DNA of 64,000 nucleotides from Chaetoceros tenuissimus (taxonomy: Eukaryota; Bacillariophyta; Thalassiosirophyceae; Chaetocerotales; Chaetocerotaceae). The notes beneath the pieces are model-generated. The model did not search any database, was not told where the DNA came from, and was given only the letters and a program-made list of their open reading frames with translations. The DNA is taken from the NCBI GenBank assembly GCA_021927905.1, contig BLLK01000029.1, positions 1 through 64,000 on the forward strand. The letters are read 5' to 3'. Shown in pieces: positions 167 to 52,505 of this stretch (position 1 is its first letter; every line of letters starts with the position of its first letter). Made by a program: the position numbers and the translations under genes.

Positions 167-2755
167 ATGACAACAATGCATCTATTCATTCCAAACTATA
201 ACATGAAGATGCGAAAGATGAATAAGCGAAATATGAAGAGAATTGAATTGATTCTATTGGGAATGTTGCTCCTTTTGTTGATAACAATTATTCTCAACAT
301 TTCTATCGCCTTAGACCTAATTGTCAGTACCAACATTATCAAAGTTCCAGACAAGGACAACATGTCGATGAAGAATCAGCGACAGCAAGTATTTTTAGAA
401 GCTCATTTCGACTTACTTCAACAGCAACGTTTGTATGATTACTCTTCTTCCAGTAGCAATCATACAGAGAGTAAGGAGCATGATATGAAAAGCATGGTGT
501 CTCGAAATGTATCTAAACCAACACTCTTGAGACAAGCAGTAGGATTGGCACCGAAAATACAATGCCATTCACCAGAGAAGAATGTTCCGTGGATATTAGA
601 TGGTACATGTATGAAGGATCCACATCGCTCTATTTTCAGTTCTGCTTCCTATAAGCGCACTTGTGGGCTTTGTGGAGACAATGCAGAATATTTGAGAGAA
701 TTGCAAGAAGATATTGCAAAGAAGTTTGCAAAGAAGTGCAAAGAATTAGTAGTTTACGGAGCTGCTCTTGGAAGCAAATATGAGCAATGGATGCGATCAT
801 CAAATTTTCTTGGTGACCATAGTATCAAAGTGGTTCGACGTCATGGAACTTGCTTTTTCCAATTTGTGACTGATGTTGATCATACGGGAGACCTTCTATC
901 AGCAGATGGTTCCCAGCGGCTCATTGTGATTGACCCATCTAGAATGCCATACAAGAACAACCGTCGGAATACAAAAATCTTGAAGCTTAATCCTGGTCTA
1001 CTCTTCCCTTGGGCTGATAGAGTGATTTGGCAGGATGCTAAACTTCTTCAATCGAATCATGGCAATATGCCTTCGCCCCGTGGTTTACCAAGCGATTACT
1101 TACTACACTTCAATCGTACCGTTGGTCGCTATGGTGTTTGCTCGAGCTACATGGGATTGCCTCCTGATAAAGCTTCTGTTGGAGACTCCTCGACAGTCAG
1201 TTTTAAAGCTCATTGCGATGCTATTATTGCTTCTGCTGAGAAGAGACCTACTGTATCTGATGATCTCGAAACTCTACGACTCCAGTGTCAACACTACGAG
1301 GGATTGCATAGTAATGAAGCACTACAGTCGAGTCAGTTATTTTACAATCAGCATCCACTTGTTGATACTGCCTTCATCGTTTATGATATGCGTAATTCAA
1401 CCTGCCGCAAATTTAATGGAGATTTTGGGTGTTCATGGCTCAGTGAAATACACTGTTTCTCCGACCGAGATCAGATTTCATTTCCACATGTACTAGCAAG
1501 CTCAGGGTTGAGGCTTTCTCCTCATATGCAAGTTTCTGGTCAAGAATATCGCGACCGCATATATATTAATGAAAAGCAAAGACCTATGTTACACATTGCA
1601 AAGAGAGGCTGCCATTGGTACTATAGGAGCTTTTCTCGATGTGTAGCAAGTTCCAACACACATATTGATGAGGAAATGATCAAGGACAACGAGACTCCAC
1701 CAACGACCACCACAACGTCAACAAAGCCGAGAGTTGCTGTGATTGTAGCGGGTACTTTGAATAGGTTCATTTTTGATTCTGCTCTGAAAAATTTGATAAA
1801 ACCTATGAAAAAAAGAGCATCCGTTGACTATTATGTGTCACTAAGCACTGCTCGAATGAAAGCTTACAGGTCAGACTCAGGATACACAGACCGCCTTCAG
1901 CCAGATCCCACACTACCTTCTTCTTCTGTTGAAGATTTTGTTGACATAGAGGAATATATACGAACCAAAATTGCCAGTCTGGCCTCGTCTGTAGGTGCCG
2001 TGTATTTGCAGGAATCTATTGATATAGATTCTGAGCCAATGCTTATCGCTAGAAGAGAAAGAGCCCTACAAGAACACCCAGACGAAGATCCAGACTCAAG
2101 ATTTCCTATCATTGACAATAGAAACGCTGCTATATCGCAAAGGACTGCAAATGCAAATAGGAATCTTTTGAGGTTGCATCTCGCTATACAGAGTTTGTGG
2201 AAGACTGCCACCAATTGGGAAAACGAAGAAGGTTTTAAGTACGATTATGTCATGCTCCTTCGTGACGACTCTCTCTGGTTGAAAGAGTTTGACATACGCA
2301 ACCTTATAGCTAAAGGTGGAGACATTTTCATCCCTGCATGTGATGCAAGGGATCCTCCTCTACAACCAAGTGAAATAAATGACCATATCCTAGTTTCGCG
2401 ACGTGACACTGCAGACGTATTTGGAAATTATTATTCAGAACTATCGAAGAAAGATGTCAAGGGTTGCATGAAACTACTGCCAGATGATCTGACAAAAGGT
2501 GGAAAGCGTGGGTGCAACAGTGAAATGTTACTGAAATGGATAGTGGACGAAAGAAACATAACTGTCACCAAACTTGGACAAAGTAAGCTACCCTTTCAGC
2601 GCTCTGCAAATGTAAAGCTACCGGATGGATCGAATGTTCCATGTTTCCATAAGTTTTGTCAAAGTCGAAAGCACCCCTTGACTTTCACAAATGAGTCGAA
2701 TGCAATAAAAATATGCAAACAAATCGATTGGAAAAAGGTCTTTGAAATAAAGTAA
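167..2755 (+). CDS. Family copy 1: two-domain type II membrane glycosyltransferase-like protein, 862 aa
   Basis: Unbroken 862-codon frame. A basic tail (residues 1-25) is followed by one membrane segment (about 27-50), so a type II Golgi/ER protein is expected. Domain 1 (about 190-450) resembles DUF616/TOD1-MUCI70 glycosyltransferases: it has ADRVIWQDAKL (283-293) and FSDRDQISF (431-439), the family's conserved RDQ-SF motif. A Thr-rich linker (510-520) leads to domain 2 (about 521-835). Domain 2 looks like a GT-A fold, with RVAVIVAGTLNRF at its start, YDYVMLLRDD (692-701) as the probable acidic metal or sugar-nucleotide site, NDHILVSRRDT (738-748) and GCNSEMLLKW (782-791). Several N-glycosylation sequons are present. 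Transfer of a sugar to a secreted or surface glycan is inferred; donor and acceptor are unknown. The start MTTMHLF differs from the MTHNNASSH start of copies 2, 3, 6 and 7. Confidence 0.85.
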   Translation: MTTMHLFIPNYNMKMRKMNKRNMKRIELILLGMLLLLLITIILNISIALDLIVSTNIIKVPDKDNMSMKNQRQQVFLEAHFDLLQQQRLYDYSSSSSNHTESKEHDMKSMVSRNVSKPTLLRQAVGLAPKIQCHSPEKNVPWILDGTCMKDPHRSIFSSASYKRTCGLCGDNAEYLRELQEDIAKKFAKKCKELVVYGAALGSKYEQWMRSSNFLGDHSIKVVRRHGTCFFQFVTDVDHTGDLLSADGSQRLIVIDPSRMPYKNNRRNTKILKLNPGLLFPWADRVIWQDAKLLQSNHGNMPSPRGLPSDYLLHFNRTVGRYGVCSSYMGLPPDKASVGDSSTVSFKAHCDAIIASAEKRPTVSDDLETLRLQCQHYEGLHSNEALQSSQLFYNQHPLVDTAFIVYDMRNSTCRKFNGDFGCSWLSEIHCFSDRDQISFPHVLASSGLRLSPHMQVSGQEYRDRIYINEKQRPMLHIAKRGCHWYYRSFSRCVASSNTHIDEEMIKDNETPPTTTTTSTKPRVAVIVAGTLNRFIFDSALKNLIKPMKKRASVDYYVSLSTARMKAYRSDSGYTDRLQPDPTLPSSSVEDFVDIEEYIRTKIASLASSVGAVYLQESIDIDSEPMLIARRERALQEHPDEDPDSRFPIIDNRNAAISQRTANANRNLLRLHLAIQSLWKTATNWENEEGFKYDYVMLLRDDSLWLKEFDIRNLIAKGGDIFIPACDARDPPLQPSEINDHILVSRRDTADVFGNYYSELSKKDVKGCMKLLPDDLTKGGKRGCNSEMLLKWIVDERNITVTKLGQSKLPFQRSANVKLPDGSNVPCFHKFCQSRKHPLTFTNESNAIKICKQIDWKKVFEIK

Positions 2756-4931
2756 ATGTATTTGAAATTGTCGATCTTTGTGTCCAGTTCTATTTTATAC
2801 AAAATCCCAGGGCTGCCAGTTCCTGGAATTCTTCTCTGTTTGTAGTTTTGTGCAAAAGTCTTTTACTTCCTACCTACAATCTATGTTGATAAAGAATGAT
2901 GTCTCTCTGGAAGAAGTCAAGAAGAGTCAAGTACCACTTTGTATGTTTTTGTCTAGTCTGTCCCTGTTGGTAAGAAGTCAGGAGGCGAATTGATTGGTAT
3001 TACACCTTGTTCAGGATTATCAATCCAATTTCGTCTACCTGCTAGGAGAAATTATTGTTGGAGTGTGGGCTCTGTATGAACTGTATGAATAGTTGTCATG
3101 AATGTCAAAGTGATGTACAAATACAATACTCAAGCAGATAGAGAAAGACTTGGATTGTATCGACCAATGCTATGTGATGTGATTGTTTTAAAGATGCTGT
3201 AGTACTTTTCTTCAGAAATTGCTTACAAAAGCCGTGAACAACTATAGTGGAATGCATTTCTACTGAGAGAATCCACGGACGAAAATATGGCAGTGTTAAT
3301 AGAATCTGTCGAACGAAAATATCGTGACCAGACATAGATGAAGAAGGGGGAAGTAAATAAATACAGAGCTATGTTACAACAATATCACAATAGAATGTCA
3401 CATGATTGTACATTACATGACAACGAACTAATGTTGCCAAAATAGAAAAGAGTAAAACATATGTTATTTTTTATAGTAATGTTTGGCTACTGGACTTTCA
3501 CCAGTCAAAGCCCACACAGAAATAAATGAATCAGTACTTGCTTATTGACAAAGAAGCCTGACAAGCAAGGAAATAGTATTCAAAACATGTATGCTGCGGG
3601 GAGAACTCAAGCATCCATGAAAGGATACGGTTCCTCAACCTCACACAGCTATGAAAGAATGAAGAACATATACAAACTTGTTGGGGCAACCTAACAGCAC
3701 AGGCCCTTTTTAGATTGGACAGAGCACACAACTGTCAGCGCAATTGGCTTTGACAGCAGCATCATAAACGGTATCGATGCAATATCTCGCAAGTCATAAT
3801 TATTGATTTAGTAGAGGATCCGAGTCAATAGAAAATTTCAGATCGTCTAATGGCATGGATTTCATAATATAGTTTATGACGAATAAATGTTACCGGGCCG
3901 CGTAAATCCACTGTGTCTTCTATATAATGAAGTGAGAGACTTTCTTTTCAAAGCACTCTGATGAAAATTATGGATCCATCTACGTAGCAAGTGACAACAC
4001 CCAGTAATTTGAACTTATCAGTACCATTTACTCGGTTGCTTCTGCTTGAATGGAATGACGATGTCGACGTCAACACCTTGAGGTTGAAATCTAATTGCAG
4101 AGCCGTGTTGTTATCTCTCTTTCACTTGATCCAATGACATGAGATTTTGTAAATCTTGGTCTTTCAGGTTAATTGTAAAGCGCTCTGTTATAGACGTCTT
4201 TTTTCAATGTGTTGTAGGTATATTCCCAAAGCTGGTTCGATGGATGCATCTATGATGGCCAAACTGCGTCTCTATGAAATGTAGGACAAACCATTACGTA
4301 ACATCCCTCCAATCTTTTCGCCAGGTTTGTGCCTTCCACCACTGTGGACAAGTAATACAGTCTGATTGTTGATGGGATCCTTCACTGTCAAAACCATTTC
4401 TACAGTGCATGTCAGCATCTCTTTCAACATAATAAGAACTACGGAAAAGTTGGATTGATAAAACAGTGGATCAGATGGATATTCATGAGAATCCAATGAC
4501 GAGCTAGCATTGGAGTCCAAAGATGACGTCAGGGAGACCTTTTCTATCTCTTTTTCAGAGAATTCCATTCGTTCTCCTTCCCTGGAAGGGTTCTAACTTG
4601 GGAAAAATAAATGGTTGAAGTGCTCGGGTCTTAAAAAAAAACTCTGATTCTCTGAAAAAGGTAATCTCTTGGGAAGAAGAAATGGTTGAAGTGTTCAGGT
4701 CATTAGTACAGAAAGACCCTCTTCTGATCAGGGTTCAAGAAGGGAGAAGCCTCTGAGAGAATCATGAACTCTTGAACTTCAGTCTTGGAAAGGGCCCTCG
4801 GGTCATTTTAAAAAGATCTCAAAATTCTTTCCCTCTCTCTATCTCCTCTAAAGGGCCTGTTCGGGTCATCAAAAGTTCTCCCTCTTCTAAGGCAGTCGGT
4901 GAAACCGAGACATTTCTCCATTTCCAAAAAA
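2756..4931. repeat. 3' flank plus distal upstream block of the amplified unit, first copy
   Basis: This gene-free stretch between copies 1 and 2 recurs almost unchanged at 8479-10654. It recurs inverted at 33252-35438, and diverged at about 22800-25200. It holds the 3' flank of copy 1, an antisense gene relic (3710-4568), and the distal upstream block of copy 2 with TTGAAGTGCTCGGGTC at 4615-4630 and a close variant at 4686-4701. Small open frames inside it recur only because the repeat is young. Confidence 0.8.
3710..4568 (-). pseudogene. Relic of an unrecognised host gene ending in a ShKT-like Cys tail
   Basis: On the minus strand the relic runs from MEFSEKEIEKVSLTSS to a tail reading CIDTVYDAAVKANCADSC followed by VLCPI and a stop. 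The tail spacing resembles the C-terminal half of a ShKT domain, a small disulfide module common in algal secreted enzymes. Middle pieces (VLLVHSGGRHKPGEKIGG; DKFKLLGVVTCYVDGS) are recognisable in all copies but lie in different frames, so it is broken in several places. I do not recognise the body. Copies are at 9433-10291, 23973-24830 and 33615-34474, with tails at 27660-28184 and 38461-38975. Confidence 0.5.
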
Positions 4932-5616: not shown

Positions 5617-5620
5617 AAAA

Positions 5621-5883
5621 GTGACAATTCCCCCAGCCCATCCGAAATTCGGCGATCCTGATCTAGATCTTGACATTTTGATTCAAGGTCTTATTGATGC
5701 CCCCCTTTTGAGAAAGAAAACGTCTCCTACCCAAGCTACTGTCTTCTGCTCCATCCCAAATCACGTAAATATTCGCTCGTATGTTCCAAGATCTTGACAT
5801 TTTCCAATAGGAAAAATATGTACGAGTAATCGCCAAATCAAACTTTTCCCTCGAATAGGATTTTATACTTCTTCTTCTTCTCT
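5621..5883 (+). promoter_or_regulatory. Proximal upstream module (type I) of family copy 2
   Basis: The module starts at GTGACAATTCCCCCAG and contains GGCGATCCTGATCTAGATC, a second GATCTTGACATTTT about 130 bp later, and the T/C-rich run TTATACTTCTTCTTCTTCTC just before the start codon. Near-identical copies precede copies 3, 6 and 7. A variant precedes the unrelated methyltransferase gene at 54033. Probable core promoter and 5' UTR, inferred from conservation and position. Confidence 0.6.
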
Positions 5884-8478
5884 ATGACGCACAACAATGC
5901 CTCCTCTCATTCCAAATCAAATATGAAGATACGAAAGATGAAGAAGCGAAAGATGAAAAAAATTGAACTGATTCTATTGGGAATGTTGCTCCTTTTGTTA
6001 ACAACAATTATTCTCAACATTTCTATCGCCTTAGACCTAAAGATTGTCAATGCCAACATTATCAAAGCTCCAGACAAGGACAATATGTCGATTAACAATC
6101 AGCGACAGCAAGCATTTTCTAGAGCTCATTTCGACTTACTTCAAAAGCAACGTTTGTATGATTACTCTTCTTCCAGTAGCAATCATACAGAGAGTAAGGA
6201 GCATGATATGAAAAGCATGGCGTCTCGAAATGTATCTAAACCAACACTCTTGAGACAAGCTGTAGGATTGGAACCGAGAATACAATGCCATTCACCAGAG
6301 AAGAATGTTCCCTGGATATTAGATGGTACATGTATGAAGGATCCACATCGCTCTATTTTCAGTTCTGCTTCCTATAAGCGCACTTGTGGGCTTTGCGGAA
6401 ATGGTGCAGAATATTTGAGAGAATTACAAGAAGATATTGCAAAGAAGTTTGCAAAGAAGTGCAAAGAATTAGTAGTTTACGGAGCTGCTCTTGGAAGCAA
6501 ATATGAGCAATGGATGCGATCATCAAATTTTCTTGGTGACCATAGTATCAAAGTGGTTCGACGTCATGGAACTTGCTTTTTCCAATTTGTGACTGATGTC
6601 GATCATACGGGAGACCTTCTATCATCAGATGGTTCCCAGCGGCTCATTGTGATTGACCCATCTAGAATGCCATACAAGAACAACCGTCGGAATACAAAAA
6701 TCTTGAAGCTGAATCCTGGTCTACTCTTCCCTTGGGCTGATAGAGTGATTTGGCAGGATGCTAAACTTCTTCAATCGAATCATGGCAATATGCCTTCGCC
6801 CCGCGGTTTACCAAGCGATTACTTACTACACTTCAATCGTACCGTTGGTCGCTATGGTGTTTGCTCGAGCTACATGGGATTGCCTCCTGATAAAGCTTCT
6901 GTTGGAGACTCCTCGACAGTCAGTTTTAAAGCTCATTGCGATGCTATTATTGCTTCTGCTGAAAAGAGACCTACTGTATCTGATGATCTCGAAACTCTAC
7001 GACTCCAGTGTCAACACTACGAGGAAATGCATAGTAATGAAGCACTACAGTCGAGTCAGTTATTTTACAATCAGCATCCACTTGTTGATACTGCCTTCAT
7101 CGTTTATGATATGCGTAATTCAACCTGCCGCAAATTTAATGGAGATTTTGGGTGTTCATGGCTCAGTGAAATACACTGTTTCTCCGACCGAGATCAGATT
7201 TCATTTCCACATGTACTAGCAAGCTCAGGGTTGAGGCTTTCTCCTCATATGCAAGTTTCTGGTCAAGAATATCGCGACCGCATATATATTAATGAAAAGC
7301 AAAGACCTATGTTACACATTGCAAAGAGAGGCTGCCATTGGTACTATAGGAGCTTTTCTCGATGTGTAGCAAGTTCCAACACGCATATTGATGAGGAAAT
7401 GATCAAGGACAACGAGACTCCACCAACGACCACCACAACGTCAACAAAGCCGAGAGTTGCTGTGATTGTAGCGGGTACTTTGAATAGGTTCATTTTTGAT
7501 TCTGCTCTGAAAAATTTGATAAAACCTATGAAAAAAAGAGCATCCGTTGACTATTATGTGTCACTAAGCACCGCTCGAATGAAAGCTTACAGGTCAGACT
7601 CAGGATACACAGACCGCCTTCAGCCAGATCCCACACTACCTTCTTCTTCTGTCGAAGATTTTGTTGACATAGAGGAATATATACGAACCAAAATTGCCAG
7701 TCTGGCCTCGTCTGTAGGTGCCGTGTATTTGCAGGAATCTATTGATATAGATTCTGAGCCAATGCTTATCGCTAGAAGAGAAAGAGCCCTACAAGAACAC
7801 CCAGACGAAGATCCAGACTCAAGATTTCCTATCATTGACAATAGAAACGCTGCTATATCGCAAAGGACTGCAAATGCAAATAGGAATCTTTTGAGGTTGC
7901 ATCTCGCTATACAGAGTTTGTGGAAGACTGCCACCAATTGGGAAAACGAAGAAGGTTTTAAATACGATTATGTCATGTTCCTTCGTGACGACTCTCTCTG
8001 GTTGAAAGAGTTTGACATACGCAATCTTCTATCTAAAGGTGGAGACATTTTCATCCCTGCATGTGATGCAAGGGATCCTCCTCTACAACCAAGTGAAATA
8101 AATGACCATATCCTAGTTTCGCGACGTGACACTGCAGACGTATTTGGAAATTATTATTCAGAACTATCGAAGAAAGATGTCAAGGCTTGCATGAAACTAC
8201 TGCCAGATGATCTGACAAAAGGTGGAAAGCGTGGGTGCAACAGTGAAATGTTACTGAAATGGATAGTGGACGAAAGAAACATAACTGTCACCAAACTTGG
8301 ACAAAGTAAGCTACCCTTTCAGCGCTCTGCAAATGTAAAGCTACCGGATGGATCGAATGTTCCATGTTTCCATAAGTTTTGTCAAAGTCGAAAGCACCCC
8401 TTGACTTTCACAAATGAGTCGAATGCAATAAAAATATGCAAACAAATCGATTGGAAAAAGGTCTTTGAAATAAAGTAA
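5884..8478 (+). CDS. Family copy 2: two-domain type II membrane glycosyltransferase-like protein, 864 aa
   Basis: Intact 864-codon frame with the same architecture as copy 1: basic tail, membrane anchor near residues 28-50, DUF616-like domain with FSDRDQISF, Thr linker, and second GT-A-like domain with YDYVMFLRDD. The start MTHNNASSHSKSN is shared with copies 3, 6 and 7. Diagnostic variants are CGLCGNGAEYL, LEPRIQ, EEMHS, VYLQESID, WENEEGF, LLSKGG and KKDVKA. Some of these match copy 1 and others copies 3 or 7, so the copy is mosaic. It is followed by the full A-type flank. Confidence 0.85.
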   Translation: MTHNNASSHSKSNMKIRKMKKRKMKKIELILLGMLLLLLTTIILNISIALDLKIVNANIIKAPDKDNMSINNQRQQAFSRAHFDLLQKQRLYDYSSSSSNHTESKEHDMKSMASRNVSKPTLLRQAVGLEPRIQCHSPEKNVPWILDGTCMKDPHRSIFSSASYKRTCGLCGNGAEYLRELQEDIAKKFAKKCKELVVYGAALGSKYEQWMRSSNFLGDHSIKVVRRHGTCFFQFVTDVDHTGDLLSSDGSQRLIVIDPSRMPYKNNRRNTKILKLNPGLLFPWADRVIWQDAKLLQSNHGNMPSPRGLPSDYLLHFNRTVGRYGVCSSYMGLPPDKASVGDSSTVSFKAHCDAIIASAEKRPTVSDDLETLRLQCQHYEEMHSNEALQSSQLFYNQHPLVDTAFIVYDMRNSTCRKFNGDFGCSWLSEIHCFSDRDQISFPHVLASSGLRLSPHMQVSGQEYRDRIYINEKQRPMLHIAKRGCHWYYRSFSRCVASSNTHIDEEMIKDNETPPTTTTTSTKPRVAVIVAGTLNRFIFDSALKNLIKPMKKRASVDYYVSLSTARMKAYRSDSGYTDRLQPDPTLPSSSVEDFVDIEEYIRTKIASLASSVGAVYLQESIDIDSEPMLIARRERALQEHPDEDPDSRFPIIDNRNAAISQRTANANRNLLRLHLAIQSLWKTATNWENEEGFKYDYVMFLRDDSLWLKEFDIRNLLSKGGDIFIPACDARDPPLQPSEINDHILVSRRDTADVFGNYYSELSKKDVKACMKLLPDDLTKGGKRGCNSEMLLKWIVDERNITVTKLGQSKLPFQRSANVKLPDGSNVPCFHKFCQSRKHPLTFTNESNAIKICKQIDWKKVFEIK

Positions 8479-10654
8479 ATGTATTTGAAATTGTCGATCT
8501 TTGTGTCCAGTTCTATTTTATACAAAATCCCAGGGCTGCCAGTTCCTGGAATTCTTCTCTGTTTGTAGTTTTGTGCAAAAGTCTTTTACTTCCTACCTAC
8601 AATCTATGTTGATAAAGAATGATGTCTCTCTGGAAGAAGTCAAGAAGAGTCAAGTACCACTTTGTATGTTTTTGTCTAGTCTGTCCCTGTTGGTAAGAAG
8701 TCAGGAGGCGAATTGATTGGTATTACACCTTGTTCAGGATTATCAATCCAATTTCGTCTACCTGCTAGGAGAAATTATTGTTGGAGTGTGGGCTCTGTAT
8801 GAACTGTATGAATAGTTGTCATGAATGTCAAAGTGATGTACAAATACAATACTCAAGCAGATAGAGAAAGACTTGGATTGTATCGACCAATGCTATGTGA
8901 TGTGATTGTTTTAAAGATGCTGTAGTACTTTTCTTCAGAAATTGCTTACAAAAGCCGTGAACAACTATAGTGGAATGCATTTCTACTGAGAGAATCCACG
9001 GACGAAAATATGGCAGTGTTAATAGAATCTGTCGAACGAAAATATCGTGACCAGACATAGATGAAGAAGGGGGAAGTAAATAAATACAGAGCTATGTTAC
9101 AACAATATCACAATAGAATGTCACATGATTGTACATTACATGACAACGAACTAATGTTGCCAAAATAGAAAAGAGTAAAACATATGTTATTTTTTATAGT
9201 AATGTTTGGCTACTGGACTTTCACCAGTCAAAGCCCACACAGAAATAAATGAATCAGTACTTGCTTATTGACAAAGAAGCCTGACAAGCAAGGAAATAGT
9301 ATTCAAAACATGTATGCTGCGGGGAGAACTCAAGCATCCATGAAAGGATACGGTTCCTCAACCTCACACAGCTATGAAAGAATGAAGAACATATACAAAC
9401 TTGTTGGGGCAACCTAACAGCACAGGCCCTTTTTAGATTGGACAGAGCACACAACTGTCAGCGCAATTGGCTTTGACAGCAGCATCATAAACGGTATCGA
9501 TGCAATATCTCGCAAGTCATAATTATTGATTTAGTAGAGGATCCGAGTCAATAGAAAATTTCAGATCGTCTAATGGCATGGATTTCATAATATAGTTTAT
9601 GACGAATAAATGTTACCGGGCCGCGTAAATCCACTGTGTCTTCTATATAATGAAGTGAGAGACTTTCTTTTCAAAGCACTCTGATGAAAATTATGGATCC
9701 ATCTACGTAGCAAGTGACAACACCCAGTAATTTGAACTTATCAGTACTATTTACTCGGTTGCTTCTGCTTGAATGGAATGACGATGTCGACGTCAACACC
9801 TTGAGGTTGAAATCTAATTGCAGAGCCGTGTTGTTATCTCTCTTTCACTTGATCCAATGACATGAGATTTTGTAAATCTTGGTCTTTCAGGTTAATTGTA
9901 AAGCGCTCTGTTATAGACGTCTTTTTTCAATGTGTTGTAGGTATATTCCCAAAGCTGGTTCGATGGATGCATCTATGATGGCCAAACTGCGTCTCTATGA
10001 AATGTAGGACAAACCATTACGTAACATCCCTCCAATCTTTTCGCCAGGTTTGTGCCTTCCACCACTGTGGACAAGTAATACAGTCTGATTGTTGATGGGA
10101 TCCTTCACTGTCAAAACCATTTCTACAGTGCATGTCAGCATCTCTTTCAACATAATAAGAACTACGGAAAAGTTGGATTGATAAAACAGTGGATCAGATG
10201 GATATTCATGAGAATCCAATGACGAGCTAGCATTGGAGTCCAAAGATGACGTCAGGGAGACCTTTTCTATCTCTTTTTCAGAGAATTCCATTCGTTCTCC
10301 TTCCCTGGAAGGGTTCTAACTTGGGAAAAATAAATGGTTGAAGTGCTCGGGTCTTAAAAAAAAACTCTGATTCTCTGAAAAAGGTAATCTCTTGGGAAGA
10401 AGAAATGGTTGAAGTGTTCAGGTCATTAGTACAGAAAGACCCTCTTCTGATCAGGGTTCAAGAAGGGAGAAGCCTCTGAGAGAATCATGAACTCTTGAAC
10501 TTCAGTCTTGGAAAGGGCCCTCGGGTCATTTTAAAAAGATCTCAAAATTCTTTCCCTCTCTCTATCTCCTCTAAAGGGCCTGTTCGGGTCATCAAAAGTT
10601 CTCCCTCTTCTAAGGCAGTCGGTGAAACCGAGACATTTCTCCATTTCCAAAAAA
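8479..10654. repeat. 3' flank plus distal upstream block, second copy
   Basis: Near-identical to 2756-4931 but without the 685-bp insertion at its right end. Here CTCCATTTCCAAAAAAGTG is uninterrupted, which gives the empty site. It includes an antisense relic at 9433-10291 and the distal motifs before copy 3. Confidence 0.85.
9433..10291 (-). pseudogene. Second copy of the ShKT-tail gene relic
   Basis: Same relic as at 3710-4568, displaced by 5723 bp with very few differences. It was copied passively with the family unit and is equally broken. Confidence 0.5.
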
Positions 10655-10917
10655 GTGACAATTCCCCCAGCCCATCCGAAATTCGGCGATCCTGATCTAG
10701 ATCTTGACATTTTGATTCAAGGTCTTATTGATGCCCCCCTTTTGAGAAAGAAAACGTCTCCTACCCAAGCTACTGTCTTCTGCTCCATCCCAAATCACGT
10801 AAATATTCGCTCGTATGTTCCAAGATCTTGACATTTTCCAATAGGAAAAATATGTACGAGTAATCGCCAAATCAAACTTTTCCCTCGAATAGGATTTTAT
10901 ACTTCTTCTTCTTCTCT
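10655..10917 (+). promoter_or_regulatory. Proximal upstream module (type I) of family copy 3
   Basis: Matches 5621-5883 almost base for base, including GGCGATCCTGATCTAGATC and the T/C run before the start codon. It directly follows the distal block with no insertion. Confidence 0.6.
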
Positions 10918-13509: not shown

Positions 13510-14041
13510 ATGTATTTTGAAAGTGTTCATCTATGTGCTTCTTCAAGCCACAAACTTATGTAGACTAATAGTATTGTAATTGTAATGTTCATAATCGATA
13601 GCCAATTAGAGTCATGAAAGGCGTTGCTAGATTTACCTCTCCAGTTGTTGTTATTAAAACCTCCTCGAGAAGAGAGCTAGAGCCCCGTTCCTTTTCGGTA
13701 CCCTACTAGTCTAGGATTTCGAGCTTGCTATGAAGATCTAAACTTCTTCTGACCGGATCGAGAATATTATTGTTGGGACAATACATCAATTGGAACTTGC
13801 ATATTTTCTACTCTAGCTGATCTAAGTAGTAAAAACTAAGCAGTTTTTGTTTCGGTTGCCACATCTTTGATATTGTTTGGATTCATTTGAAAGTGGTGTG
13901 AATAGATGGAACCGGGAAGAGATTGTAATCCTCTCTCCAGTTATATTTTGATAGAAAATTCCAGGCCTGCTAGTCCCTTGAATTCTTCTCTAGTAGTAGT
14001 TTTGTGCAAAAGTCTTTTACTTCCTACATAATCTATGTTGA
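13510..14041. repeat. B-type 3' flank, gene-free
   Basis: Gene-free 3' flank beginning TGTATTTTGAAAGTGTTC. The same flank follows copy 5 (22302-22800). It also follows copies 7 and 10 inverted (29841-30387 and 49698-50244). It contains CCTCCTCGAGAAGAGAGCTAG, pieces of which recur at about 20565 and 58540. It breaks off at 14041, where the next family fragment begins. Confidence 0.7.
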
Positions 14042-14611
14042 ATACAGAGTTTGTGGAAGACTGCCACCAATTGGGAAAAGGAAGAAGGTTTTAAATACGA
14101 TTATGTCATGTTCCTTCGTGACGACTCTCTCTGGTTGAAAGAGTTTGACATACGCAATCTTATAGCTAAAGGTGGAGACATTTTCATCCCTGCATGTGAT
14201 GCAAGGGATCCTCCTCTACAACCAAGTGAAATAAATGACCATATCCTAGTTTCGCGACGTGACACTGCAGACGTATTTGGAAATTATTATTCAGAACTAT
14301 CGAAGAAAGATGTCAAGGCTTGCATGAAACTACTGCCAGATGATTTGACAAAAGTTGGAAAGCGTGGATGCAACAGTGAAATGTTACTGAAATGGATAGT
14401 GGACGAAAGAAACATAACTGTCACCAAACTTGGACAAAGTAAGATACCCTTTCAGCGCTCTGCAAATGTAAAGCTACCGGATGGATCGAATGTTCCATGT
14501 TTCCATAAGTTTTGTCAAAGTCGGAAGCACCCCTTGACTTTCACAAATGAGTCGAATGCAATAAAAATATGCAAACAAATCGATTGGAAAAAGGTCTTTG
14601 AAATAAAGTAA
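14042..14611 (+). pseudogene. Family copy 4: C-terminal fragment
   Basis: From ATACAGAGTTTGTGGAAG to the stop this matches the last ~570 bp of copy 3. An open frame of 186 codons begins at ATG 14051. It lacks the anchor, domain 1 and half of domain 2, so it cannot make a family protein. One difference is KVGKRG where the other copies have KGGKRG. It sits inside a B-type flank and carries the start of another B flank after its stop, which suggests local partial duplication of the end of copy 3. Confidence 0.8.
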
Positions 14612-15512: not shown

Positions 15513-15521
15513 TACGTAATT

Positions 15522-18375: not shown

Positions 18376-18378
18376 ATT

Positions 18379-38027: not shown

Positions 38028-38230
38028 TGTTGTCAGAGTACGTAGAAGAATAAGTATGAAATTCTGCTTGAGGGAGAGGTTATGATTTGGCAATTACTCG
38101 TATTATTTAATATGAGCGAATATTTACGTGATTTGGATTGGGCAAACGATATCTTGGGTAGGAGATGTTTTCTAGGACCTTTAGAGGAGAGAGAGGAAAA
38201 GAATCTTTGAGATCTTTTGAAATGACCCGA
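38028..38230 (-). promoter_or_regulatory. Deleted variant of the upstream module, copy 8
   Basis: Contains the AATTACTCGTATTATTTAA and GAATATTTACGTGATTTGG segments and the GACCCGAGGGCCCTTT motif, but the GGCGATCCTGATCTAGATC block is missing through an internal deletion. Expression of copy 8 may therefore differ from the others. Confidence 0.45.
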
Positions 38231-40860: not shown

Positions 40861-41074
40861 TCATCAAGAATGAGCATAAAAAACTGCCATAGTTCTCATT
40901 TTTTCACAATCTGGTTGTGCTGAGCAGGCACTTTTTTCGTTCCTTTTTTCAACTCCTCACATGGACTGATGTCAAACCCAACGCTACACACACCTTCTTA
41001 GAAAAGCAGTGTTTCATAGACATAACCACAAACATCTTACATTCGCACTTTTCTATTTTCCTCATTCAAGCAAG

Positions 41075-42267
41075 ATGGGGGTTGGCTTTCATGACGATGT
41101 AGATCTTATTCCAGATAAGCGGACAGTCAGTTCGAGGATTGACTCTGAATCCAAAGATAGCTCTCGTAGAGCGAAGATGTTGCAGCAAAGATGTATGGAT
41201 AGTGTGGCTAAAATGAGAGAGACTTTCAAGAATAGCAGGCCAATATTACAACATCGTATCAGTCAGCTCGAAATTGGTGAGACTTTGGGTCGTGGAGGTT
41301 TCGGAGAAGTACACTCACTAAGATCGATATCCTCTGAAGATGGTGAACACGAAACTTTTACGTCAATGGCATTGAAACAAATCAGAGGCAGCCTTTACGG
41401 TGCTCAAAGATTACAAGCTCAAGCAGACTTGGCCAAAGAAGCAGAGTTCTTAAGAGCTCTCTCGACACATCCCAACATTATCACTCTTCATTCGACTGGA
41501 ATCATTGGAAGTCCAGACTTCTTTCTTGTGATGGATAAACTTGAAAAGACTTTTGAGGATATGATCTATAAAGAATGGAAGCCTCTATATGAACAACGAG
41601 ATGTCAATAATAGCGAGATGAAGTTGTCGAAACGCGAAATTAAGAAAGAGAACACGAGAAACCTCATGATTTCACAAATTAAACTCTTGATTGAAGTTTG
41701 CTCTGCTTATTCATTCCTACACGATAACTTGGTTTTGTTCCGTGACGTGAAGCCGGAGAATGTAGGCATCGACTTTGATGGCGTTGCCAAAGTGTTTGAT
41801 TTTGGCCTAGCACGGGAACTGAAAGAAGAGGAACAAGTTTCAAAAGATGAGTATAAGCTCACACCACAAACAGGTAGTAGGGTGTATATGGCGCCTGAAG
41901 TATTTACTTCACAACCTTACGGATTACCCTACGATGTCTACTCGTTTTCAATCATGGTGAGTAATTTGCATGTATTTATCTCATATCAGCTATTTCCTTT
42001 TACTCAAACTGTTCTTGCACAACATAGTTTTGGGAAACGCTGACAATGGAAACACCCTATTCCAATCTTACAAAAGCACAACATGCAAATTTTGCCATGT
42101 TGAACAGTAGAAGGCCACCTATTGACCCCAAATGGCCAAAAAATATTCAGCAATTACTAACTTCTGGGTGGAGTAGAGACCCTTCGAAACGTCCCATTAA
42201 TTTCATGACAACAGACCAGCTAGCCTTCTTTCCCTGTCTCGCACCTGCTTTTGCCGTTTCTGCCTGA
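41075..42267 (+). CDS. Ser/Thr protein kinase, complete copy (copy 2), one intron, ~373 aa
   Basis: Exon 1 is 41075-41956. A 71-bp intron (41957-42027, GTGAGT...CATAG) is followed by exon 2, 42028-42267. Joining them gives SFSIMFWETLTMETPYSNL, the expected helix F-G region. Landmarks are GRGGFGEV (72-79), MALK (K101), an alpha-C Glu near 122, FRDVKPEN (222-229; FRD instead of HRD), DFG (242-244), MAPEV (272-276), YDVYSFS, and RDPSKRP near the end. The ~60-residue N-terminus has no known domain, and there is no signal peptide, so it is probably cytosolic or nuclear. ATG 41075 was preferred because upstream extension would need a non-ATG start. The last ~20 residues after RPINFM look atypical, so the extreme C-terminus may be altered. 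Confidence 0.8.
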
Positions 42268-42711: not shown

Positions 42712-45306
42712 TTACTTTATTTCAAAGACCTGCTTCCAATCGATTTGTTTGCATATTTTTATTGCATTCGACTCATTTGTGAAAGTCAAGGGGTGCTTTC
42801 GACTTTGACAAAACTTATGGAAACATGGAACATTCGATCCATCCGGTAGCTTTACATTTGCAGAGTGCTGAAAGGGTAGCTTACTTTGTCCAAGTTTGGT
42901 GACAGTTATGTTTCTTTCGTCCACTATCCATTTCAGTAACATTTCACTGTTGCATCCACGCTTTCCACCTTTTGTCAGATCATCTGGCAGTAGTTTCATG
43001 CAACCCTTGACATCTTTCTTCGATAGTTCTGAATAATAATTTCCAAATACGTCTGCAGTGTCACGTCGCGAAATTAGGATATGGTCATTTATTTCACTTG
43101 GTTGTAGAGGAGGATCCCTTGCATCACATGCAGGGATGAAAATGTCTCCACCTTTAGCTATAAGATTGCGTATGTCAAACTCTTTCAACCAGAGAGAGTC
43201 GTCACGAAGGAACATGACATAATCGTACTTAAAACCTTCTTCTTTTTCCCAATTGGTGGCAGTCTTCCACAAACTCTGTATAGCGAGATGCAACCTCAAA
43301 AGATTCCTATTTGCATTTGCAGTCCTTTGCGATATAGCAGCGTTTCTATTGTCAATGATAGGAAATCTTGAGTCTGGATCTTCGTCTGGGTGTTCTTGTA
43401 GGGCTCTTTCTCTTCTAGCGATAAGCATTGGCTCAGAATCGATATCAACAGATTTCTGCAAATTCACGGCACCTACAGACGAGGCCAGACTGGCAATTTT
43501 GGTTCGTATATATTCCTCTGTGTCAACAAAATCTTCAACAGAAGAAGAAGGTAGTGTGGGATCTGGCTGAAGGCGGTCTGTGTATCCTGAGTCTGATCTG
43601 TAAGCTTCCATTGGAGCAGTGCTTAGTGACACATAATAGTCAACGGATGCTCTTTTTTTCATAGGTTTTATCAAATTTTTCAGAGCAGAATCAAAAATGA
43701 ACCTATTCAAAGTACCCGCTACAATCACAGCAACTCTCAGCTGTGTTGACGTTGTAGTGGTCGTTGGTGTAGTCTCGTTGTCCTTGATCATTTCCTCATC
43801 AATATGCGTGTTGGAACTTGCTATACATCGAGAAAAGCTCCTATAGTACCAATGGCAGCCTCTCTTTGCAATGTGTAACATAGGTCTTTGATTTTCATTA
43901 ATATATATGCGGTCGCGATATTCTTGACCAGAAACTTGCATATGAGGAGAAAGCCTCAACCCTGAGCTTGCTAGTACATGTGGAAATGAAATCTGATCTC
44001 GGTCGGAGAAACAGTGTATTTCACTGAGCCATGAACACCCAAAATCTCCATTAAATTTGCGGCAGGTTGAATTACGCATATCATAAACGACGAAGGCAGT
44101 ATCAACAAGTGGATGCTGATTGTAAAATACCTGACTCGACTGTAGTGCTTCATTACTATGCATTTCCTCGTAGTGTTGACACTGGAGTCGTAGAGTTTCG
44201 AGATCATCAGATACAGTAGGTCTCTTCTCAGCAGAAGCAATAATAGCATCGCAATGAGCTTTAAAACTGACTGTCGAGGAGTCTCCAACAGAAGCTTTAT
44301 CAGGAGGCAATCCCATGTAGCTCGAGCAAACACCATAGCGACCAACGGTACGATTGAAGTGTAGTAAGTAATCGCTTGGTAAACCACGGGGCGAAGGCAT
44401 ATTGCCATGATTCGATTGAAGAAGTTTAGCATCCTGCCAAATCACTCTATCAGCCCAAGGGAAGAGTAGACCAGGATTAAGCTTCAAGATTTTTGTATTC
44501 CGACGGTTGTTCTTGTATGGCATTCTAGATGGGTCAATCACAATGAGCCGCTGGGAACCATCTGCTGATAGAAGGTCTCCCGTATGATCAACATCAGTCA
44601 CAAATTGGAAAAAGCAAGTTCCATGACGTCGAACCACTTTGATACTATGGTCACCAAGAAAATTTGATGATCGCATCCATTGCTCATATTTGCTTCCAAG
44701 AGCAGCTCCGTAAACTACTAATTCTTTGCACTTGCTTGCAAACTTCTTTGCAATATCTTCTTGTAATTCTCTCAAATATTCTGCACCATTTCCGCAAAGC
44801 CCACAAGTGCGCTTATAGGAAGCAGAACTGAAAATAGAGCGATGTGGATCCTTCATACATGTACCATCTAATATCCACGGAACGTTCTTCTCTGGTGAAT
44901 GGCATTGTATTCTCGGTGCCACTCCTACTGCTTGTCTCAAGAGTGTTGGTTTAGATACATTTCGAGACACCATGCTTTTCATATCATGCTCCTTACTCTC
45001 TGTATGATTGCTACTGGAAGAAGAGTAATCATACAAATGTTGCTTTTGAAGCAAGTCGAAATGAGCTTCTCTACTGGAAAATGCTTGCTGTCGCTGATTC
45101 TTCATCGAATATTCTCCTTGTCTGTAGCTTTGATAATGTTGGCATTGACAATCTTTAGGTCTAAGGCGATAGAAATGTTGAGAATAATTGTTGTTAACAA
45201 AAGGAGCAACATTCCCAATAGGATCAATTCAATTTTCTTCATCTTTCGCTTCTTCATCTTGCTTTAGCGTCTTCATATTTGGAATGAATATATGAATTGT
45301 TATCAT
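42712..45306 (-). pseudogene. Family copy 9: nearly full-length but N-terminally frameshifted
   Basis: A 797-codon frame runs from ATG 45105 (MKNQRQQAFSSREAHFD) to the stop, with both catalytic domains intact. The anchor-coding part upstream is present but out of frame. It carries the same 2-bp insertion after the first codons as the chimeric relic at 18606, and a 1-bp loss where other copies have DNMSMKN. Translation from 45105 would give a soluble protein with no membrane anchor. Substitutions not seen elsewhere (TQLRVAV, APMEAYR, FVDTEEY, PFQHSAN) suggest relaxed selection. Its upstream module is type II. Confidence 0.7.
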
Positions 45307-46375: not shown

Positions 46376-47353
46376 TTAATTACCCCACCATTGATTGCCA
46401 CCAGGAGATGGCAAAGGCATGCCATCCAGATGGTAACACTCATCATCATGGTAATCAAATTTCTCCAACTTACATCCATCCACATTTACAAACATATTCA
46501 TGACTGCTATAAGGTGGTTGTCCCACTCGTTGTAAATAATCATCGATGAATATCCTCCCCTTGTATGATTGTGCCATTCTCCAAATATGTAATTTATGTT
46601 TTTGCAAAGAATCCCACTCCCTATTAGATCAGGAAAAACTTTAAATTCACTACCTTCAATGTCAACCTTCATAACCACCAAAGGTTTCAACTTCAATGCT
46701 TCCTCTCCACCAAATGTGCGACTTGGAATTTGTCTTTCATCAATGTGTTCTTCTAACCATGTCCGAAGCCTTAGTACTGGAACATTCACTGCAGAAGTAC
46801 TATCCTTGAACCGTGTTGTGCTAAAGCCCCATTCGTTATTTTCTAGATCTTTATCACCTTGGTGGTAAAAAGTAAGATTCCCATCAATGTCACTCACACC
46901 AGCAGCTACAGGAAAATATCGGATTCCATAGGCCTTATATGCCTTTTCAAGATCCTTGTGCCTCTTGATGTGTGCGGGATTTGGTTCAAATGCAAACACG
47001 CAAATATCTCTTGGGTCTCTTGTCTCTGCGTTTCCAAAATGATTATAAAAAATTTCCCTTGTTTTAGGTTTGATACGAGGATACTTCTCTGGTTCATAAA
47101 TGAATCGTCCATGAACGCCAATATTGGCTCCAACATCAAGAAAGACATGATAGCAGCCATCGCCTAGCTTTTTGGTTTGTTGTGAGATAGAACTTTTTGT
47201 GGGTGAGTTTCGAGGAGATTGCTCTAGGCATTCTTTGAACAAGCATATGATCATGATGGATAATGCTGAATAAAGGACAATCGCATATTTCATGCTTATA
47301 GATTTCATGCTTACAGATTTTATGCTTATAGATTTCTTGCTTATAGATTTCAT
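46376..47353 (-). CDS. FkbM-family methyltransferase, type II membrane protein, 325 aa
   Basis: Single open frame. The N-terminal tail is a run of KSISM-type repeats (residues 2-22) followed by a membrane segment (about 23-40). The lumenal domain fits Methyltransf_21/FkbM: VFLDVGANIGVHG (70-82) is the SAM-binding glycine loop, AFEPNP (121-126) has the acidic ribose-binding residue, VAAGVSDIDG and TFYHQG follow, and VMKVDIEGSEF (227-237) is the characteristic motif. O-methylation of a sugar or secreted metabolite is the family expectation; the substrate is unknown. TTGAAGTGTT/TTCGGGTC motifs occur upstream at about 47565-47610. Confidence 0.85.
   Translation of the reverse strand: MKSISKKSISIKSVSMKSISMKYAIVLYSALSIMIICLFKECLEQSPRNSPTKSSISQQTKKLGDGCYHVFLDVGANIGVHGRFIYEPEKYPRIKPKTREIFYNHFGNAETRDPRDICVFAFEPNPAHIKRHKDLEKAYKAYGIRYFPVAAGVSDIDGNLTFYHQGDKDLENNEWGFSTTRFKDSTSAVNVPVLRLRTWLEEHIDERQIPSRTFGGEEALKLKPLVVMKVDIEGSEFKVFPDLIGSGILCKNINYIFGEWHNHTRGGYSSMIIYNEWDNHLIAVMNMFVNVDGCKLEKFDYHDDECYHLDGMPLPSPGGNQWWGN
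47284..47353 (-). repeat. 15-bp coding repeat in the methyltransferase tail
   Basis: Four to five units of a 15-bp repeat (AAATCTATAAGCATG with substitutions) encode K-S-I/V-S-M/I/K in the cytosolic tail. It keeps the reading frame, so copy-number changes would only lengthen the tail. Confidence 0.75.
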
Positions 47354-48308: not shown

Positions 48309-48655
48309 GGGTGTGGCTCAGCGCATAAGGCTCACCTCATGTATTCTACTGATAGAACGTGGAACGAGAGCTCCCTCATTATTTACTTTTATCTTTTTCA
48401 TCGTTTTCTGAATGAAAACGTATTTTTCAAAATTAAAATTGACATCAAGAATGAGCATAAAAAACTGCCATAGTTCTCATTTTTTCACAATCTGGTTGTG
48501 CTGAGCAGGCACTTTTTTCGTTCCTTTTTTCAACTCCTCACATGGACTGATGTCAAACCCAACGCTACACACACCTTCTTAGAAAAGCAGTGTTTCATAG
48601 ACATAACCACAAACATCTTACATTCGCACTTTTCTATTTTCCTCATTCAAGCAAG
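48309..48655. repeat. Upstream region of kinase copy 3
   Basis: From about 48413 matches 28579-28801, and from 48451 matches 40868-41074 including CATGGACTGATGTC. Probably kinase 5' sequence carried with the cassette. Confidence 0.6.
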
Positions 48656-49558
48656 ATGGGGGTTGGCTTTCATGACGATGTAGATCTTATTCCAGATAAG
48701 CGGACAGTCAGTTCGAGGATTGACTCTGAATCCAAAGATAGCTCTCGTAGAGCGAAGATGTTGCAGCAAAGATGTATGGATAGTGTGGCTAAAATGAGAG
48801 AGACTTTCAAGAACAGCAGACCAATATTACAACATCGTATCAGTCAGCTCGAAATTGGTGAGACTTTGGGTCGTGGAGGTTTCGGAGAAGTGCATTCACT
48901 TAGATCGATATCTTCTGAAGATGGTGAACACGAAACTTTTACGTCAATGGCATTGAAACAAATCAGAGGCAGCCTTTACGGTGCTCAAAGATTACAAGCT
49001 CAAGCAGACTTGGCCAAAGAAGCAGAGTTCTTAAGAGCTCTCTCGACACACCCCAACATTATCACTCTTCATTCAACTGGAATCATTGGAAGTCCAGACT
49101 TCTTTCTTGTGATGGATAAACTTGAAAAGACTTTTGAGGATATGATCTATAAAGAGTGGAAGCCTCTATACGAACAACGGGATGTCAATACTAGCGAGAT
49201 GAAGTTATCGAAACGCGAAATTAAGAAAGAGAACACGAGAAACCTCATGATTTCACAAATTAAACTCTTGATTGAAGTTTGCTCTGCTTATTCATTCCTA
49301 CACGATAACTTGGTTTTGTTCCGTGACGTGAAGCCGGAGAATGTAGGCATCGACTTTGATGGCGTTGCCAAAGTGTTTGATTTTGGCCTAGCACGGGAAC
49401 TGAAAGAAGAGGAACAAGTTTCAAAAGATGAGTATAAGCTCACACCACAAACAGGTAGTAGGGTGTATATGGCGCCTGAAGTATTTACTTCACAACCTTA
49501 CGGATTACCCTACGATGTCTACTCGTTTTCAATCATGAAAAGACTTTTGAGGATATGA
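48656..49558 (+). pseudogene. Truncated Ser/Thr protein kinase, copy 3
   Basis: As kinase copy 1 it ends SFSIMKRLLRI through the same internal-segment duplication (about 49536-49697), but the ATP loop GRGGFGEV is intact. It lacks the C-lobe encoded by exon 2 of the complete copy. Scattered silent differences from copies 1 and 2 occur. Probably non-functional as a kinase. Confidence 0.75.
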
Positions 49559-49697
49559 TCTATAAAGAATGGAAGCCTCTATATGAACAACGAGATGTCA
49601 ATACTAGCGAGATGAAGTTGTCGAAGCGCGAAATTAAGAAAGAGAACACGAGAAACCTCATGATTTCACAAATTAAACTCTTGATTGAAGTTTGCTC

Positions 49698-50244
49698 ATT
49701 CTTTATCAACATAGATTGTAGGTAGGAAGTAAAAGACTTTTGCACAAAACTACTACTAGAGAAGAATTCCAGGGACTAGCAGGCCTGGAATTTTTTATCA
49801 AAATAAAACTGGACAGAGGATTACCATCTCTTCCCGGTTTCATCTATTCACACCACTTTCAAATGAATCCAAACAAGATCAAAGACGTTGCAACCAAAAC
49901 AAAAACAGCTTGACTCTTACTACTTAGATCAGCTAGAGTAGTAACCATGCACGTTCCGATTGATGTATTCTCCCAACAATGATATTCTCGATCCGGTCAG
50001 AAGAACTTAATCTTCATAGCAAGTACAAAATCCTCTTCTTTACTAGTCTAGGAGGCTACCGAAAAGGAACGGGACACTAGTTCTCTTCTCGAGGAGGTTC
50101 TAATAATAACTGGAGAAGTTTATCTAGCAACGACTTTCATGACTCTTATTGGCTATCGATAATAAACATTACAGTACGTACTACTACATAGTCTATATAG
50201 ATTGTGAATTGAAGCAGCACAAACATTTAAACTTTCAAATACAT
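49698..50244. repeat. Inverted B-type flank downstream of family copy 10
   Basis: Near-identical to 29841-30387 (offset ~19857 bp). It is part of a directly repeated cassette of kinase fragment, flank and minus-strand family copy. Confidence 0.8.
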
Positions 50245-52505
50245 TTACTTTATTTCAAAGACCTTTTTCCAATCGATTTGTTTACATATTTTTATTGCAT
50301 TCGACTCATTTGTGAAAGTCAAGGGGTGCTTCCGACTATGACAAAACTTATGGAAACATGGAACATTCGATCCATCCGGTAGCTTTACATTTGCAGAGCG
50401 CTGAAAGGGTATCTGACTTTGTCCAAGTTTGGTGACAGTTATGTTTCTTTCGTCCACTATCCATTTCAGTAACATTTCACTATTGCACCCACGCTTTCCA
50501 CCTTTTGTCAGATCATCTGGCAGTAGTTTCATGCAACCCTTGACATCTCTCTTCGATAGTTCTGAATAGTAATTTCCAAATACGTCTGCAGTGTCACGTC
50601 GCGAAACTAGGATATGGTCATTTATTTCACTTGGTTGTAGAGGAGGATCCCTTGCATCACATGCAGGGATGAAAATGTCTCCACCTTTAGATAGAAGATT
50701 GCGTATGTCAAACTCTTTCAACCAGAGAGAGTCGTCACGAAGGAACATGACATAATCGTATTTAAAACCTTCTTCCTTTTCCCAATTGGTGGCAGTCTTC
50801 CACAAACTCTGTATAGCGAGATGCAACCTCAAAAGATTCCTATTTGCATTTGTAGTCCTTTGCGATATAGCAGCGTTTCTATTGTCAATGATAGGAAATC
50901 TTGAGTCTGGATCTTCGTCTGGGTTCTCTTCTAGGGCTCTTTCTCTTCTAGCGATAAGCATTGGCTCAGAATCGATATCAACAGATTTCTGCAAATTCAC
51001 GGCACCTACAGACGAGGACAGACTGGCAATTTTGGTTCGTATATATTCCTCTATGTCAACAAAATCTTCGACAGAAGAAGAAGGTAGTGTGGGATCTGGC
51101 TGAAGGCGGTCTGTGTATCCTGAGTCTGATCTGTAAGCTTTCATTCGAGCGGTGCTTAGTGACACATAATAGTCAACGGATGCTCTTTTTTTCATAGGTT
51201 TTATCAAATTTTTCAGAGCAGAATCAAAAATGAACCTATTCAAAGTACCCGCTACAATCACAGCAACTCTCGGCTTTGTTGACGTTGTGGTGGTCGTTGG
51301 TGGAGTCTCGTTGTCCTTGATCATTTCCTCATCAATATGTGTGTTGGAACTTGCTACACATCGAGAAAAGCTCCTATAGTACCAATGGCAGCCTCTCTTT
51401 GCAATGTGTAACATAGGTCTTTGCTTTTCATTAATATATATGCGGTCGCGATATTCTTGACCAGTAACTTGCATATGAGGAGAAAGCCTCAACCCTGAGC
51501 TTGCTAGTACATGTGGAAATGAAATCTGATCTCGGTCGGAGAAACAGTGTATTTCACTGAGCCATGAACACCCAAAATCTCCATTAAATTTTCGGCAGGT
51601 TGAATCACGCATATCATAAACGATGAAGGCAGTATCAACAAGTGGATGCCGATTGTAAAATACCTGACTCGACTGTAGTGCTTCATTACTATGCATTTCC
51701 TCGTAGTGTTGACACTGGAGTCGTAGAGTTTCGAGATCATCAGATACAGTAGGTCTCTTCTCGGCAGAAGCAATAATAGCATCGCAATGAGCTTTAAAAC
51801 TGACTGTCGAGGAGTCTCCAACAGAAGCTTTATCAGGAGGCAATCCCATGTAGCTCGAGCAAACACCATAGCGACCAACGGTACGATCGAAGTGTAGTAA
51901 GTAATCGCTTGGTAAACCTTTGGGCGAAGGCATATTGCCATGATTCGATTGAAGAAGTTTAGCATCCTGCCAAATCACTCTATCAGCCCAAGGGAAGAGT
52001 AGACCAGGATTCAGCTTCAAGATTTTTGTATTCCGACGGTTGTTCTTGTATGGCATTCTAGATGGGTCAATCACAATGAGCCGCTGGGAACCATCTGATG
52101 ATAGAAGGTCTCCCGTATGATCGACATCAGTCACAAATTGGAAAAAGCAAGTTCCATGACGTCGAACCACTTTGATACTATGGTCACCAAGAAAATTTGA
52201 TGATCGCATCCATTGCTCATATTTGCTTCCAAGAGCAGCTCCGTAAACTACTAATTCTTTGCACTTGCTTGCAAACTTCTTTGCAATATCTTCTTGTAAT
52301 TCTCTCAAATATTCTGCACCATTTCCGCAAAGCCCACAAGTGCGCTTATAGGAAGCAGAACTGAAAATAGAGCGATGTGGATCCTTCATACATGTACCAT
52401 CTAATATCCAGGGAACGTTCTTCTCTGGTGAATGACATTGTACATTCGTTGCTACTTTTAAGACTTGCCTAGTTTGATTCGGTTTGGATAAGATTTCAGT
52501 TACTT
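50245..52505 (-). pseudogene. Family copy 10: N-terminus replaced by diverged sequence, no anchor
   Basis: The family frame is open from about 52505 to the stop, with the first ATG at 52389 (714 codons, MKDPHRSIF). Identity to the other copies stops at QCHSPEK (about 52440). Upstream the in-frame text SKPNQTRQVLKVATNVQ still resembles the family's SKPTLLRQAVGLAPRIQ, so the join is to a diverged relative rather than random DNA. No start codon or membrane anchor follows before a stop. Its 5' half matches copy 6 (PKGLPSD, FDRTVG, QVFYNRH, RDST) and its 3' half copy 7 (LLSKGG, SKRDVKG). Confidence 0.65.

Follow-up and report, generated by a model that had tools for sequence, protein, structure and literature searches.

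Why should 64 kb of the genome of the diatom Chaetoceros tenuissimus hold a dozen loci of a single gene family, and what kind of protein do its intact members encode? The stretch in question (hereafter the window) comprises the first 64 kb of contig BLLK01000029.1 (C21; 1.12 Mb) of assembly GCA_021927905.1, and the genome that we searched consists of 41,027,912 bases in 68 contigs. To our knowledge, few enzymes for the synthesis of surface polysaccharides in diatoms have been identified, and a two-domain enzyme with one recognisable half would provide a direct handle on them. On balance, we judge it probable that the family encodes a membrane-bound, two-domain Golgi enzyme engaged in glycan building, and that it was amplified through segmental duplication and gene conversion.

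Twelve family loci in a region with duplicated blocks

With one intact copy as the query, blastn recovered 12 family loci in the window: five intact copies, one with a replaced C-terminus, two that are N-terminally damaged, two C-terminal fragments and two N-terminal relics. These are the same 12 places, in the same states, that had been listed in an earlier reading of the DNA made without database searches (the sequence-only reading), and its claim of a local amplification of the family is borne out as well. The remaining non-relic copies match the query at 97.4-98.6% DNA identity with an expectation value (E) of 0, so that a chance resemblance is excluded. The loci, with the evidence for each in brackets, are as follows; residue numbers used below refer to the reference copy.

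167-2755 (+): intact copy, 862 amino acids (aa), within a near-tandem block (open reading frame (ORF) list, blastn, Pfam)
5884-8478 (+): intact copy, 864 aa (ORF list, blastn, Pfam)
10918-13509 (+): intact copy, 863 aa (ORF list, blastn)
14042-14611 (+): C-terminal fragment, residues 678-866 (blastn)
18631-18941 (+): N-terminal relic, 83.6% nucleotide identity, in two frames (blastn)
21091-22301 (+): C-terminal fragment, residues 464-866, in two frames (blastn)
25464-27761 (+): copy with an unrelated C-terminus, homology ending at 27661; frame of 765 aa (ORF list, blastn)
30388-32988 (-): intact copy, 866 aa, the reference (ORF list, blastn)
35439-38033 (-): intact copy whose usual first ATG is CTG, the next in-frame ATG following three codons later; it appears in the ORF list as an 884-aa frame starting with TTG at 38093
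42712-45281 (-): copy with a damaged N-terminus and an open frame of 797 aa from 45105 (ORF list, blastn)
50245-52452 (-): copy with a truncated N-terminus and an open frame of 714 aa from 52389 (ORF list, blastn)
60050-60187 (-): N-terminal relic, 77.5% nucleotide identity over 160 columns (blastn)

The copies are direct at the left of the window and inverted at its right, and the DNA around them is duplicated in large blocks. Positions 1-4931 match 5715-10654 at 98.3%, and 5814-14048 match 38108-29843, in inverted orientation, at 97.1%. Three times a protein kinase gene and a family copy stand tail-to-tail (28736/30388, 41009/42712 and 48590/50245); the match between 28580-32595 and 48413-52452 (97.9%) shows that the kinase gene was duplicated together with its family copy.

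A membrane anchor, a DUF616 domain and an uncatalogued partner

In the reference copy, a lysine/arginine-rich tail precedes one strongly hydrophobic stretch close to the N-terminus (residues 30-48). This anchor is followed by a variable stem, by domain 1 (about residues 187-505), by a linker with a run of threonines and by domain 2 (about residues 522-866). From the hydrophobic stretch, the basic tail and the variable stem we infer that the protein has type II topology and is located in the Golgi. In the five long copies that were scanned whole, domain 1 matched the Pfam family PF04765 (TOD1_MUCI70/DUF616) with E values of 1.5e-9 to 8.2e-11, and the isolated domain 1 gave E = 1.3e-10; over these scans the scores were 38.1-42.2 bits, against a curated cut-off of 21.4. 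The single anchor and the DUF616/TOD1-MUCI70-like first half proposed in the sequence-only reading agree with these results. PF04765 corresponds to glycosyltransferase family 116 (GT116), as given in PMC11765706. Its profile match places domain 1, as a divergent member, in TOD1_MUCI70/DUF616 (GT116).

Relatives of domain 1 are found in virus contigs. The pattern FSxRDQxSF, sought at the DNA level, picked out 37 loci in viral contigs, and tblastn of one copy against these loci returned at least 15 matches in at least 15 of them (best E 6.7e-8). An alignment of seven viral proteins then brought 66 viral loci (IMG/VR, L085-L150), a partly redundant set in which 36 are at least 180 aa long and less than 90% alike. 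The motifs HxxRxCx[YW]xE, [WY]xD[GASCN] and FSxRDQxSF occur anywhere in 60, 61 and 41 of these 66 proteins, respectively. In an alignment of 35 rows (A5), the viral relatives are 19-28% identical to domain 1; a W, a D, a K and F-S-x-R-D-Q-x-S are invariant in 35/35 rows, and all 35 match PF04765. Domain 1, which carries inserts relative to the viral proteins, keeps RRNxK, WxD and FSxRDQxSF (motifs that were picked from the viral relatives and are not each present in every one of them), so that WxD and FSxRDQxS-type motifs are common to both groups.

With 34 viral relatives as input, AlphaFold modelled domain 1 at a mean predicted local distance difference test score (pLDDT) of 60.8 and a predicted template modelling score of 0.59, with 157 of 381 residues at or above pLDDT 70. 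Compared with a viral structure library, the model gave four matches at E ≤ 0.001 (1.2e-5 to 1.8e-4), the first of which is named as an HNH endonuclease and the others as DUF616, nucleotide-diphospho-sugar transferase and TOD1/MUCI70-like. The model supports the predicted DUF616 membership and lends weak backing to a glycosyltransferase A (GT-A) fold.

The sequence-only reading had also called the pairing of the two domains unusual and without a characterised enzyme. This holds in so far as the partner is uncatalogued and no paper on DUF616 with this partner, or on this family in diatoms, came up among the papers listed by a literature search that lay mostly outside subscription journals. In the main text of the C. 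tenuissimus virus-infection transcriptome paper (PMC12305248), no words starting with glycosyl, glycan or polysaccharide occur. The viral DUF616 proteins differ from the window protein in that 64 of the 66 have open frames of 128-281 aa, too short for an additional domain of the size of domain 2; the other two frames measure 547 and 767 aa. Fusions of DUF616 to a glycosyltransferase do exist, however: L086 (1537-3837) combines Glyco_transf_7C with DUF616, and L101 (2002-3642) Glycos_transf_1-type domains with DUF616, each above the Pfam cut-off. Like the window protein, both hold DUF616 and a partner in one chain, but their DUF616 domain is C-terminal and their partners are known families, whereas the window protein has DUF616 at the N-terminal side of an uncatalogued partner. 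Judged from these profile matches, DUF616 and a glycosyltransferase in one chain is not unique; what differs here is the uncatalogued partner and the reversed order.

The N-terminal transmembrane stretch in front of the DUF616 domain is a feature shared with TOD1, as described in PMC4309442. Unlike MUCI70 and TOD1 of GT116, the window protein adds a C-terminal domain of about 340 residues and occurs in many near-identical, clustered copies.

An observation apart concerns a 153-aa, ATG-initiated frame that runs within domain 1 on the same strand in another frame (1035-1496 (+)) and has a counterpart at the corresponding position of seven further long copies. Among codon-shuffled versions of one copy, an alternative-frame run was equally long in 6 of 1000, a figure that is uncorrected for the choice of this frame and concerns copies that are not independent.

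The copies exchange sequence and domain 2 is under purifying selection

Seventeen loci were read for the analysis of selection, and the ten full-length open copies among them formed the sample for dN/dS and variant counts. In the test for exchange, 1874 of the 3828 pairs among 88 informative sites are incompatible with a single tree. Incompatibility over short range amounts to 0.241, against 0.490 in permutations (as low in 0 of 1000); since nearby site pairs are far more compatible than permuted ones, the copies exchange sequence by gene conversion or recombination. The copies differ most within the first 600 coding bases: diversity is 7% over the initial 200 bases and drops to 0.6-1.7% per 200 bases past base 600. 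The 5.4% of the last 14 columns concerns too few columns to weigh.

The pairwise ratio of non-synonymous to synonymous change (dN/dS) is 0.42 both over the whole length and in the N-terminal part; domain 1 has 0.48, domain 2 has 0.31, and the short linker, with 1 synonymous and 2 non-synonymous variants, has 0.88. Of the variants in domain 2, 22 are synonymous and 21 non-synonymous, where 26.8% would be expected to be synonymous (one-sided p = 6e-4; four regions were tested in all), so that this domain is under significant purifying selection.

These data bear on whether the amplification has any adaptive meaning. It might merely be the by-product of an unstable, repeat-rich region whose copies are mostly dying, as is suggested by the damaged state of seven of the 12 window loci, by duplicated blocks that take in kinase genes and intergenic DNA, and by the dispersed repeats within the region. 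Against such general decay stand the ten full-length open copies among 17 loci and the significant purifying selection that domain 2 shows in them, and we regard this explanation as rather unlikely, although it is the strongest of the rivals considered here.

Is domain 1 still active, and what is domain 2?

Several observations weigh against the reading of the protein as a glycan-building enzyme with two sugar-handling domains. A clear HxxRxCxYxE was not found in domain 1, although HxxRxCx[YW]xE is missing from only 6 of the 66 viral relatives; in the comparison with GT116 it has to be kept in mind that this signature was taken from the viral relatives and not from plant sequences. The alignment of the region is uncertain: one of 11 sequences retains the H and E of the signature in domain 1, without R, C and Y, and one of 35 sequences retains none of the five. 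A loss of the signature from domain 1 is nonetheless likely. Purifying selection is not significant in domain 1 (11 synonymous and 20 non-synonymous variants, p = 0.19) or in the N-terminal part (26 and 51, p = 0.085). Compared with solved structures, the domain 1 model had no match at E ≤ 0.001; the best was BoGT6A (E = 0.41), UGGT and MNT2 came seventh and ninth, and unrelated proteins, ATP synthase chains among them, took ranks 2, 5, 6 and 8. BoGT6A, UGGT and MNT2 are GT-A enzymes.

The results for domain 2 also weigh against this reading. The domain gave no significant match in NCBIfam or in Pfam, where a fragment of it stayed unmatched with the limit raised to E = 10; nor did the family alignment match PDB sequences. 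No relative was found in viral contigs scanned by exact peptides (of the whole protein or of domain 2) and by domain 2 motifs, or in prokaryotic contigs scanned with a fragment and one motif of domain 2, all of these scans relying on exact short words that distant relatives could escape. A fold prediction from eight window variants, with no outside relatives, reached a pLDDT of 30.5, and the model was discarded. What domain 2 does possess are the motifs YDYVMFLRDD (696), ACDARDPP (728), EINDH (740) and GCNSEMLL (786), which to our eye recall GT-A enzymes with a DxD-like motif. The claim of the sequence-only reading that the second half is GT-A-like found no backing from the separate profile searches or the fold prediction and is left to these motifs.

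Some candidate leads to the nature of domain 2 were rejected. Matches in PHROGs (0.11) and among PDB sequences (0.8) were taken as chance, and a viral locus picked up by a domain 2 motif yielded no relative by tblastn. Domains 1 and 2 bear no mutual resemblance, and an internal duplication as their origin finds no support.

The missing signature and the weak constraint put the activity of domain 1 in doubt. One can therefore envisage that domain 1 is no longer active, or has an altered activity, and now serves as a scaffold or acceptor-binding module, with domain 2 as the working enzyme; that positions of about 170-243 of the PF04765 profile are unmatched in the window copies and that the significant constraint falls on domain 2 would fit such a shift. 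We consider it unlikely, given that domain 1 keeps WxD, RRNxK and FSxRDQxSF, that the alignment of the lost signature is uncertain, and that constraint does not differ significantly between the two domains (Fisher p = 0.24).

Copies elsewhere in the genome

A genome-wide blastn search returned 42 pieces, which are confined to five contigs: C21 (up to about 98 kb), C34 (4,456,483 bases), and C60, C12 and C24, which are contigs of 20-60 kb. A search with PF04765 (E up to 10; 35 pieces) and one with domain 2 (26 pieces) gave pieces on no other contigs; these searches ignored introns and scored the best candidates alone, so that a split or very distant paralogue could escape them. One hit outside the clusters, C21:324176 (E = 0.98), was taken as chance; by eye, its frame reads as ABC-transporter-like.

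Some of these copies may be allelic or assembled twice. The assembly was made haploid by HaploMerger2, and its estimated heterozygosity of 1.56%, both as stated in PMC8613185, is about as high as the divergence between certain copies. The window and C34 have 2067 bp in common at 2 mismatches and about 5 kb, in two pieces, at 99%, and C12, C24 and C60 are small. That the copy number as such has been inflated through unmerged haplotypes or misassembly is nevertheless distinctly improbable, for the segments common to C21 and C34 differ in order and orientation, and the 19 copies with a whole 3' end (about 500 bases; nine in the window and ten at other loci) comprise 18 distinct sequences; a diploid therefore requires at least nine loci, provided that the differences are not assembly errors.

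A proposed mechanism

The family is read here as a glycan-building transferase because PF04765 is GT116, because the protein has type II Golgi features, and because Arabidopsis MUCI70, since renamed RGGAT1, acts in vitro as a galacturonosyltransferase on rhamnogalacturonan I (PMC10576798). A TOD1-type lipid hydrolase is very improbable: the DUF616 protein TOD1 is reported to be an alkaline ceramidase (PMC4309442), but the DUF616 protein MUCI70/RGGAT1 is a galacturonosyltransferase in vitro, and two virus-contig proteins join DUF616 to glycosyltransferase domains.

According to the glycan-building reading, each intact copy would give rise to a secretory-pathway membrane protein of type II, presumably Golgi-resident. 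Its first lumenal domain would act as a divergent DUF616/GT116 glycosyltransferase that relies on a nucleotide sugar and on WxD, as DUF616 enzymes presumably do. The second lumenal domain would most likely handle sugars, probably as a second glycosyltransferase, and might either attach another sugar or bind the acceptor. The product would be an extended or decorated polysaccharide or glycoprotein that is secreted or displayed at the cell surface. Segmental duplication, both tandem and inverted and in part together with the tail-to-tail kinase gene, would have amplified the family, and gene conversion would keep the copies alike, while their 5' ends, which encode the anchor and stem, stay diverse. 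The clustered, exchanging copies may thus offer a natural case in which gene conversion holds an enzyme core alike and lets anchor and stem vary.

The uncatalogued domain 2 may represent a new transferase family. As a speculative extension that we think has a small chance of being right, domain 2 would found an undescribed glycosyltransferase family, the protein would be a bifunctional polymerase alternating two sugars, and the copies, diverse at the 5' end and homogenised in the core, would form a fast-evolving surface-glycan system of the diatom.

Neighbouring genes and minor observations

Five further genes of the window have the following assignments.

28736-29701 (+): protein kinase gene, 321-aa frame, tail-to-tail with the 30388 copy (Pfam, blastn)
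41009-42043 (+): protein kinase gene, tail-to-tail with the 42712 copy (Pfam, blastn)
48590-49558 (+): protein kinase gene, tail-to-tail with the 50245 copy (assigned by 98.8% DNA identity to the 41009 region alone)
46376-47353 (-): FkbM-family methyltransferase (Pfam, 1.4e-10)
55072-56493 (+): DXD sugar-binding glycosyltransferase-like protein with a 45-base tandem repeat in its stem (Pfam, 2e-11)

The three kinase frames (28736, 41009 and 48590) have different ends, which may reflect introns or damage. With the FkbM methyltransferase and the DXD protein, the neighbourhood looks glycan-related. The frames at 58741-59637 (-) and 62927-63955 (+) resemble, in their motifs, a sulfotransferase and an O-fucosyltransferase; they had no Pfam match (E up to 10) and no sulfotransferase or O-fucosyltransferase match in the PDB.

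Three telomere repeats were sought in 152 gathered loci, among which the window was represented by its first 2.5 kb (L005), and none was found. Two dispersed repeats lie in the window. The one at 60211-61113 occurs on many contigs, mostly at 90-100% identity, and is probably a transposable element. The other, at 17507-18379, lies inside the cluster, has copies at 89-93% on C27, C38 and C16 as well as inverted internal matches, and is possibly a small terminal-inverted-repeat element. A tRNA-like match at 61508-61566 (-) exceeds the Rfam gathering score.

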